Below, piece after piece: positions 19,058 through 50,656 of a stretch of 64,000 bases of DNA. The DNA is taken from positions 310,001 through 374,000 of the forward strand of contig CP051228.1 of assembly GCA_017792345.1 (NCBI GenBank), written 5' to 3'. The stretch is from Mesoflavibacter sp. GTDB lineage: Bacteria > Pseudomonadota > Alphaproteobacteria > UBA8366 > Aestuariispiraceae. The notes beneath the pieces are model-generated. The model was given only the letters and a program-made list of their open reading frames with translations. It ran no database searches and was not told where the DNA came from. A program made the translations under genes and the position numbers. Each line of letters opens with the position of its first letter. Positions within the stretch are counted from its first letter, which is position 1.

Positions 19058-19720
19058 ATGTTCTTTCAGTTCCGCAAAGACAAGTCCGAGATGCCCGACC
19101 CGCGTGACGCCCTGGCAGGGCGGGTCGACGCGATGCGGGTCAATCCGATCCATCACCATTTAGGAACAAGGATCGTCGCGCCCTTCCCGGACGGCACCGA
19201 AAAGGCACTGTTCGGCCTGGGATGCTTCTGGGGGGCGGAACGGGTGTTCTGGCGCACGCGCGGCGTCTATTCGACCGCGGTCGGATATGCCGGCGGCTAC
19301 ACCCCGAACCCGACCTATGAAGAGGTTTGCAGCGGCAAGACCGGCCATAACGAGGTCGTCCAGGTCGTCTACGATCCCGGTGCAATCCGCTATGCCGATC
19401 TGCTGAAAGTCTTCTTCGAAGCGCATGATCCGACGCAAGGCATGCGTCAGGGGAACGATGTCGGCACGCAATACAGGTCGGGCCTCTACGTCCACGACGC
19501 GGTGCAGCGCGCAGAGGCTGAGGCCGCGCGGGACGCCTATCAGGCGGAATTGATCCTCCGCGGGCGCGGCCCGATCACGACCGAAATCGTCGACGCGCCG
19601 GAATTCTTCTATGCCGAGGATTATCACCAGGGCTATCTGAGCAAGAATCCCGGCGGCTATTGCGGATTGGGCGGTACCGGAATCGCCTGCCCGATCATTC
19701 CGGATCAGGCGGCGCGATAG
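19058..19720 (+). CDS. msrA: Peptide methionine-S-sulfoxide reductase MsrA
   Basis: MsrA reduces the S epimer of methionine sulfoxide in oxidised proteins. The active-site motif GCFWG has the catalytic Cys at residue 56. The conserved GYAGG and the [18 protein letters not shown] segment are present, as is the C-terminal Cys that resolves the sulfenic acid. The length of 220 residues is typical for the MsrA-only form. AGGAGAGG lies ten bases before the ATG. The 3' end overlaps the convergent XRE gene by 26 bases. Confidence 0.96.
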
Positions 19721-19973
19721 TAGGGGTCTCCTCGGCCTCCGGCGCGGGATTGGTACGACCCCGGCCCTTGGGCGGGCCGTCATAGTCGCGAATGCCGGCG
19801 GCATAGGCCGCACAGGCCAGACGAATATAGAGCGGGATCTCGATCTTCTTCCCGTCCCGCTCGCCCTTCTCATAGTACTGAACGACGCGGCGCTTCAGCC
19901 CGAGCACATGTGCCGCATCTTTCTGCGAAAGGTCTAGACTTTTTCGCCAATTCTTAAAATCGTTCGGTTTCAA
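19695..19973 (-). CDS. Small XRE-family helix-turn-helix repressor
   Basis: This is a 92-residue (up to 105) Cro/CI-type DNA-binding protein. The helix-turn-helix lies around [21 protein letters not shown], followed by [17 protein letters not shown]. The C-terminal tail is rich in Pro, Glu and Thr and has no effector domain. The start is uncertain: the TTG at 19973 has AGGGG seven bases upstream, while the longer TTG at 20012 has no ribosome-binding site. Its own promoter (20035-20063) carries an operator in the spacer, so it is probably autorepressed. It is divergent from a 79-residue gene of unknown function and is the best candidate binder of the GCGCAC-N3-GTGCGC palindromes. Confidence 0.85.
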
Positions 19974-20034: not shown

Positions 20035-20063
20035 TACACAAAGCGCACTTTGTGCGCATTTAA
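20035..20063 (-). promoter_or_regulatory. Promoter of the XRE gene with embedded operator
   Basis: On the minus strand TTAAAT (20063-20058) and TGTGTA (20040-20035) are separated by 17 bases. The operator GCGCACAAAGTGCGC fills that spacer, abutting the -35 box. Transcription would start near 20028, giving a short leader before the XRE gene. Confidence 0.6.
20043..20057. promoter_or_regulatory. Operator O1 (GCGCAC-TTT-GTGCGC)
   Basis: A perfect 6+6 inverted repeat with a 3-base centre. It lies within the spacer of the leftward XRE promoter. It starts 31 bases from O2. Confidence 0.8.
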
Positions 20064-20066
20064 CGC

Positions 20067-20095
20067 TTGCACAGCGCACCTCGTGCGCCTATGTA
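20067..20095 (+). promoter_or_regulatory. Promoter of the 79-residue gene with embedded operator
   Basis: TTGCAC (20067-20072) and TATGTA (20090-20095) are separated by 17 bases that contain operator O2. Transcription would start near 20102, just before operator O3. Confidence 0.6.
20074..20088. promoter_or_regulatory. Operator O2 (GCGCAC-CTC-GTGCGC)
   Basis: A perfect 6+6 inverted repeat in the spacer of the rightward promoter, 31 bases from O1 and 32 from O3, about three helical turns, so all three lie on one face of the DNA. Confidence 0.8.
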
Positions 20096-20105
20096 GATAA
20101 CAGAG

Positions 20106-20120
20106 GCGCACGAGGTGCGC
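20106..20120. promoter_or_regulatory. Operator O3 (GCGCAC-GAG-GTGCGC)
   Basis: The third copy of the palindrome lies at about +5 to +19 of the predicted rightward transcript. It could add roadblock-type repression or cooperative binding with O2. Confidence 0.8.
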
Positions 20121-50371: not shown

Positions 50372-50593
50372 TCAGCCCGCGCGCACCAGGGCGATCATTT
50401 CATCCACTGTCAAATTATCGGCGGCAAGTGCGGCCGCATCCAGGCACAGCGTCACGCGATAGGGATCATCCTTATAATAGTCGCGTGTCATCTCGCACTG
50501 ATATTCGGGAACATACTGATGGTACTGTTGGGCAGGCATAAATTCACCGACCCGGCTCACATCGATGAGAGCGACCAAAAGAACCATTTTCAT
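50372..50593 (-). CDS. Small protein of unknown function (73 residues), second member of the palindrome regulon
   Basis: I do not recognise this 73-residue protein. It begins MKMVLLVALIDVSRVGEF, contains a Tyr-rich middle (QYHQYVPEYQCEMTRDYYKDD split over two segments) with two Cys residues and ends with an alanine- and leucine-rich helix. The N terminus is not a convincing signal peptide. A GAGGTGAG site precedes the ATG at 50593. The promoter 35 bases upstream contains the same palindrome as the XRE locus 30 kb away, so the gene is probably under the same repressor. The longer frame to 50710 runs over this promoter and is rejected. Confidence 0.72.
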   Translation of the reverse strand: MKMVLLVALIDVSRVGEFMPAQQYHQYVPEYQCEMTRDYYKDDPYRVTLCLDAAALAADNLTVDEMIALVRAG

Positions 50594-50627: not shown

Positions 50628-50656
50628 ATAGTAAGGCGCACCTTGTGCGCATTCAA
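50628..50656 (-). promoter_or_regulatory. Promoter of the 73-residue gene with embedded operator
   Basis: On the minus strand TTGAAT (50656-50651), a 17-base spacer and TACTAT (50633-50628) form a good sigma-70 promoter. The operator lies exactly in the spacer, abutting the -35 box, as at the XRE promoter. Transcription would start near 50621. Confidence 0.65.
50636..50650. promoter_or_regulatory. Operator O4 (GCGCAC-CTT-GTGCGC)
   Basis: The same 6+6 palindrome as O1-O3 of the XRE locus, differing only in the 3-base centre. Confidence 0.8.

Follow-up and report, generated by a model that had tools for sequence, protein, structure and literature searches.

The locus studied here raises the question of which protein reads an exact palindrome lying inside a promoter, and what its binding does there. 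In the window, by which we mean the whole analyzed stretch of 64,000 nucleotides, the sequence confirms what a preliminary description had reported, namely that the palindrome GCGCACCTTGTGCGC (GCGCAC-CTT-GTGCGC; operator O4) occupies the 17-nt spacer between TTGAAT and TACTAT, ahead of a 73-codon open reading frame, here called P73. Three further copies (O1 to O3), with starts 31 and 32 bp apart, lie between a gene for a predicted XRE-family repressor (hereafter XRE) and the divergent small gene P79 (Table 1). Our answer, which draws on sequence comparison, is that XRE is with high probability an autoregulated repressor of its own promoter and that of P79 and, in trans, of the P73 promoter 30 kb away.

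Table 1. Coordinates of the XRE/P79 divergent locus and of the P73 promoter region in the 64,000-nt window
Feature	Position	Strand	Basis or remark
XRE-family (HTH_3) repressor, predicted	19695..19973	-	92 aa; start most likely TTG at 19973
Operator O1, closest to the XRE gene	20043..20057	.	Sequence search
Putative P79 promoter -35 hexamer TTGCAC	20067..20072	+	Geometry in relatives
Operator O2, within the P79 promoter spacer	20074..20088	.	Sequence search
Putative P79 promoter -10 hexamer TATGTA	20090..20095	+	Geometry in relatives
Operator O3, just 3' of the P79 -10	20106..20120	.	O2 15-mer on the opposite strand
P79, divergent from XRE; orphan alpha/beta protein of 79 aa	20198..20437	+	Alignment, AlphaFold
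P73, 73-aa orphan protein	50372..50593	-	ATG at 50593; profile and alignment
Putative P73 promoter -10 hexamer TACTAT	50628..50633	-	17 nt from the -35; geometry in relatives
Operator O4	50636..50650	.	Exact palindrome; sequence search
Putative P73 promoter -35 hexamer TTGAAT	50651..50656	-	Geometry in relatives

The first issue is whether four copies could have arisen by chance, which had been thought improbable, and the counts agree with that judgment. The window contains four perfect copies of GCGCAC-N3-GTGCGC where 0.05 would be expected, a count that none of 100 shuffles reached. In the genome as a whole, a single contig of 4,907,657 bp, the scan returned five perfect sites against one for a reversed-pattern control, rather than many copies scattered through coding DNA. 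Sites with exactly one mismatch showed no excess genome-wide (22 versus 20 for the reversed control), so that in this genome the perfect class alone is conspicuous; with up to two mismatches allowed, the window holds eight sites, fewer than the shuffles (12.7). Perfect sites were searched for in 55 genomes, and the genome-wide one-mismatch search covered the window's own genome. The N3 spacer is TTT in O1, CTC/GAG in O2/O3, and CTT in O4, and the flanks of O1, O2/O3, and O4 also differ. A role as terminators was considered and rejected: the loops are 3 nt long, O4 was not called, and O1 and O3, although called terminator-like on the minus strand, belong to a region of divergent promoters. The fifth genomic site (C1:1066110-1066124) lies 192 bp upstream of a gene for a glycine-betaine-binding protein (OpuAC). 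Its counterpart in genome G012 is at the same distance with a different spacer, and G013 and G008 have none; since it lacks promoter-like flanks, we keep it as a candidate site only.

The arrangement of operator and promoter recurs in relatives. We lined up 22 operators, located in front of five P73 genes, 11 P79 genes, four genes of an Arg/Leu-rich family, and two Clp-protease-like genes. In this set, which we chose ourselves and whose members are partly related (P79), TTG starts 6 to 8 bp ahead of the operator in 18 promoters (shuffled flanks, mean 1.9 and maximum 8 in 5000) and TAnnnT starts 0 to 2 bp past it in 9 (shuffled, mean 1.5 and maximum 7), while the reverse orientation gave zero for both motifs. 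The typical element reads CTTGAAAT-GCGCAC-N3-GTGCGC-YTAnnnT, which places the operator between -35 and -10 with a 16- to 18-bp spacer; the exception is the P79 promoter of G012, whose best-scoring hexamer pair lies elsewhere. Among the P73 promoters, TTG is present in two of five (TTC in the other three) and TAnnnT in four of five, and the window's own hexamers, TTGAAT and TACTAT, agree with the sigma-70 consensus in 8 of their 12 bases. A strict consensus promoter scan of the window called neither the P73 nor the P79 promoter, and the claim of a promoter at both genes rests on the geometry conserved in relatives.

An operator placed within a promoter spacer looks like a steric repressor site, because a repressor bound between -35 and -10 and RNA polymerase would exclude each other. 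In the scheme that we infer, XRE would act as a small dimeric helix-turn-helix protein that binds GCGCAC-N3-GTGCGC and represses rather than activates the promoters whose hexamers are given in Table 1. On O1 to O3, in the XRE/P79 intergenic region, it would regulate itself and control P79, and on O4, in the P73 spacer, its binding and that of RNA polymerase would be mutually exclusive. Some signal would then relieve the repression, so that P79 and P73 would be made together. A spacer of 16 to 18 bp already suits sigma-70, and promoters activated by MerR-type regulators have longer spacers; the fit to sigma-70, unlike the MerR-type arrangement, favors repression over activation. It is improbable that XRE, once bound to these sites, activates transcription or switches it both ways, although several sites per intergenic region and a divergent layout also suit dual regulators: a dimer in such a spacer would block polymerase, and, according to the respective papers, the relatives Aca1 and Aca2 both repress, Aca1 by blocking the promoter or polymerase (PMC9410881) and Aca2 by blocking polymerase (PMC9410906).

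The repressor proposed here carries an HTH_3 domain (PF01381; 28.8 bits, cut-off 23) and would be 105 aa long if an upstream TTG (20012) served as its start. At 92 to 105 aa, it consists of the HTH and a short tail, with no Pfam domain of the LexA/CI type for C-terminal self-cleavage or oligomerization. In the family loci compared, XRE is a single gene between msrA and the divergent small gene. In the window, msrA (PF01625; 19058-19720, plus strand) is convergent with XRE and downstream of it, and its gene family lies near XRE in 10 of the 10 family loci compared. P79 adjoins XRE in 11 of 14 family genomes and at several more distant loci. AlphaFold, given 12 sequences, predicts for P79 a small alpha/beta fold (pLDDT 91), which matched nothing at E<=0.001 among PDB and viral models, and the Pfam, PHROG, and NCBIfam searches matched it to no family. 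A mobile origin of XRE was set aside, the plasmid and phage collections having yielded two weak matches each.

P73 is, as had been stated, of no recognized kind: it belongs to no Pfam, NCBIfam, or PADLOC family, and its one PHROG match is not significant (E 0.33). Its ATG is preceded by a good ribosome-binding site (GAGGTGAG), no match was found in the plasmid collection, and a structure predicted from the single sequence was unusable (pLDDT 54). Of 43 order genomes searched with a profile, five encode a member: the one that contains the window, two from genus g5, and two from g7. The gene is missing from all five genus mates of the window genome. The four relatives are 32 to 42% identical to the window's P73, and two cysteines are invariant in the five aligned members. 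The operator stands in front of all five genes, with one mismatch in G005, and a further near-copy lies about 30 bp upstream of it in G005, G007, and G008. When the five upstream regions are aligned, conservation centers on the operator, with a short T run ahead of it. Neighboring genes differ between genera, and the one shared gene occurs in the two g7 genomes; with the neighborhoods differing and the operator kept, gene and operator would travel together, or else the operator would have been gained anew.

The sites, their rarity, their positions, and the joint conservation of the XRE protein and its site were computed directly, the last in samples of 14 genomes from the window's family, 43 from its order, and 387 from its class. 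XRE is present in 12 of the 14 family genomes, P79 in 11, and P73 in 5; all three genes of the suggested co-occurrence are thus found in the family, but not always together. Directly upstream of XRE, the palindrome occurs in 11 of the 12 XRE-bearing family genomes, as groups of two to four copies spaced 30 to 34 bp (with one 65-bp step in G008) that include one-mismatch copies in G004, G005, and G006. N3 varies between most copies and species, and the palindrome is fixed. In the exception, G003, the XRE-like match is a divergent one (53% identity), and sites with up to one mismatch are absent. G002 has neither XRE nor any palindrome site, and G001 lacks an XRE match and has two sites, with spacers composed of G+C only.

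At wider taxonomic range, XRE was found in 16 of 43 order genomes (E<=1e-15) and, in a sample of 387 alphaproteobacterial genomes, in 24 (E<=1e-30). Among 25 order and class loci outside the family, several of whose source genomes are mutually related, 21 show one or more sites (up to one mismatch) in the 300 bp upstream of XRE, an interval that holds 36 of the 37 such sites in these loci of about 3 kb. In six of the 21 positive loci, the only site is one with a single mismatch (L207, L214, L227, L228, L233, and, counting within 300 bp, L234), and the remaining four loci (L224, L225, L230, and L231) have no site at this threshold. Outside the family, 7 of the 21 genomes with XRE lack a perfect site; five of these carry one-mismatch sites at XRE, and G118 and G219 have neither a perfect site nor a one-mismatch site there.

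Site counts follow the presence of the protein. Perfect sites outnumber reversed-control matches by 44 to 5 in 11 XRE-bearing family genomes. Of the 25 XRE-bearing genomes from beyond the family, 21 were counted (all but G141, G160, G228, and G241), with 40 to 6, which gives 84 versus 11 in all 32 XRE-bearing genomes when the clusters at XRE are counted. In 20 genomes with no XRE match at the search thresholds, which we picked for completeness, the corresponding figures are 20 versus 14, and all neighboring sites are at least 171 bp apart. Taken with the drift of N3, the operator in front of five of five P73 genes, and the conserved position in the promoter spacer, the co-occurrence of protein and site provides comparative support for the trans-acting regulon under XRE that had been proposed, and the small XRE regulon of the window's genome very likely includes P73.

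Furthermore, we searched 84,980 genomes for two palindromes 13 to 20 bp apart without using any protein. This blind scan gave 113 stretches, of which 23 are alphaproteobacterial by record title and 13 have titles that state no class (L078 and the SJ870 and REEB215 records). An XRE homolog is present in 15 of the 23 alphaproteobacterial stretches, a number that includes several contigs that are, judged by length, those of family genomes, and in 0 of the 90 others. Another stretch (L181) has P79 alone, three (L085, L144, and L184) have the paired sites before an Arg/Leu-rich small protein, and four (L087, L089, L132, and L160) fall into none of these groups. Many of the 90 stretches not titled as alphaproteobacterial come from Rhodanobacteraceae or Clostridia. 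Rhodanobacter, Dyella, Frateuria, and relatives (L079, L083, L093, L097, L125, and others) show the pairing in stretches that lack an XRE homolog, and these copies are probably an independent repeat or belong to another regulator. The same pairing without an XRE homolog in the stretch is found in uncultured Clostridia MAGs (L090, L107, L110, L138, and L154). Double sites in viral sequences (three stretches on two contigs) were rejected as repeats with identical spacers and no match to XRE, P79, or P73. One such IMG/VR contig (L190 1-120 and L192 11160-11333) carries, at both ends, an array of palindromes with a CCA spacer, mostly in 31-bp units, that is a plain tandem repeat.

These data bear on who reads the palindrome. 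A different, unlinked regulator that binds it and has XRE as one of its targets would suit the paired sites that have no XRE nearby, for example those in L087, L089, L132, and L160, but we regard this as very improbable: enrichment of sites accompanies XRE-bearing genomes and is hardly seen in XRE-negative ones, the sites cluster at XRE itself, the family genome without XRE (G002) is also without a site, and Aca1, to our knowledge the nearest solved relative of XRE with a described operator, reads the same core. The idea that the copies are a repeat element or a chance cluster of palindromes without regulatory role has next to no probability, for although the palindrome also occurs without XRE in Rhodanobacteraceae and Clostridia MAGs, forms tandem repeats in two viral contigs, and gives O2 and O3 as the same 15-mer on opposite strands, spacers and flanks differ among O1, O2/O3, and O4, there are five copies in 4.9 Mb, and the operator dominates the conserved sequence upstream of the five P73 genes.

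Repression by XRE itself remains the preferred reading, and its candidate targets extend beyond the window. The regulon had been pictured as one of tiny proteins, which holds for P79 and P73 but not for a Clp-protease-like protein of about 240 aa found behind the operator in two genera (G004, PF00574; the relative in G006 has no Pfam match of its own). An Arg/Leu-rich protein of 84 to 134 aa follows the operator in G378, G420, G359, and a Thalassobaculaceae MAG, each member being BLAST-matched to that of G420. A cysteine protein of 78 to 92 aa does so in G359 and G420; an hhalign comparison with P73 (E 0.62) did not establish it as a relative. On these comparisons, the best explanation is that some other lineages place the operator before other proteins. 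Single operators also lie upstream of a Na/Pi cotransporter-PhoU gene (L060, G012:C1:3121986) and of a periplasmic-binding-protein gene (L269, G035:C14:383939; PF12849), the product of which we take to be of the phosphate-binding type. A phosphate link or chance is possible for these two sites. The Na/Pi-PhoU (G012), PF12849 (G035), and glycine-betaine-binding (window genome and G012) targets may all be chance cases, and at least six single trans sites deep inside long open reading frames (L066, L253, L255, L261, L273, and L274) look like chance.

If the regulon is as proposed, an operator and a candidate set of targets can be assigned to a small repressor present in 24 of the 387 class genomes sampled, and the same repressor-site pair would seem to guard different small genes in other Alphaproteobacteria. 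This offers a functional handle on several families of orphan small proteins, which are probably kept off together until some signal arrives. It further connects a family of chromosomal regulators with the anti-CRISPR repressor Aca1 and bears on the origin of Aca proteins. Searches of an open-access library turned up no account of the regulator, of its operator, or of its targets, though one may exist elsewhere. A broader reading, which we hold to be doubtful, is that a class-wide, nonmobile Aca1-like branch runs an undescribed alphaproteobacterial switch in which P79 would be the signal partner (anti-repressor or co-repressor) and lineage-specific orphan small proteins (P73, the 84- to 134-aa Arg/Leu-rich proteins, and the 78- to 92-aa cysteine proteins) would share the operator, possibly in a phage or stress response. 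C56 in the HTH domain of XRE, invariant in 19 of 19 aligned homologs, is a possible redox sensor, and in such a switch the invariant cysteine and the neighboring msrA would fit an oxidative signal.

The proposed mechanism of repression is of an already known kind, and several described systems come close to it. XRE shares the HTH_3 domain with antitoxins of the MqsA, HipB, and HigA type but differs in that no partner toxin gene was seen in its operon, where the downstream neighbor is the convergent msrA and P79 is divergent; its match to the MqsA model is weak and below the cut-off. PADLOC also paired XRE weakly with RmrA, at its HTH end and over 48 of the 395 positions in the profile (E 2.1e-6), which we take to reflect the common HTH. 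Against solved structures, the XRE profile matched NE0471 best (2AUW, E 1.4e-6), followed by Aca1, and no Aca family model appeared among the Pfam, PHROG, NCBIfam, or PADLOC results. According to PMC9410881, V17, R30, Q33, Y34, and R39 are important for promoter recognition by Aca2; the XRE alignment keeps R31, Q34, Y35, and R41, a spacing similar but not identical to that of R30, Q33, Y34, and R39. Unlike the autoregulators Aca2, Aca10, and NE0471, XRE has no recognized acr gene among its candidate targets, and the Aca10 operator is a 19-bp palindrome of different sequence. According to PMC9410906, 386 of 2599 Aca-like homologs are acr associated, so an Aca-like regulator without acr is not surprising in itself, and each Aca family studied has one inverted repeat within the core promoter.

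Aca1 (PDB 7C0G/7FA3/7VJM) is a further parallel, as a small HTH protein with a distant profile match to XRE (E 1.5e-4 over 47 residues). In PMC9410881, its operators are inverted repeats, GGCAC-N3-GTGCC, and the operator oligonucleotide holds GGCACACTGTGCC and GGCACAATGTGCC, 25 bp apart. The core GCAC-N3-GTGC, set within the promoter core, is thus common to these operators and to the XRE palindrome, whereas the outer half-site is GC-GCAC at XRE sites and G-GCAC in Aca1. The two also differ in setting: no acr operon was seen at XRE, which is present in 12 of 14 family genomes and not in a mobile acr-aca operon, and, unlike Aca1, XRE seems to act in trans on a remote gene.
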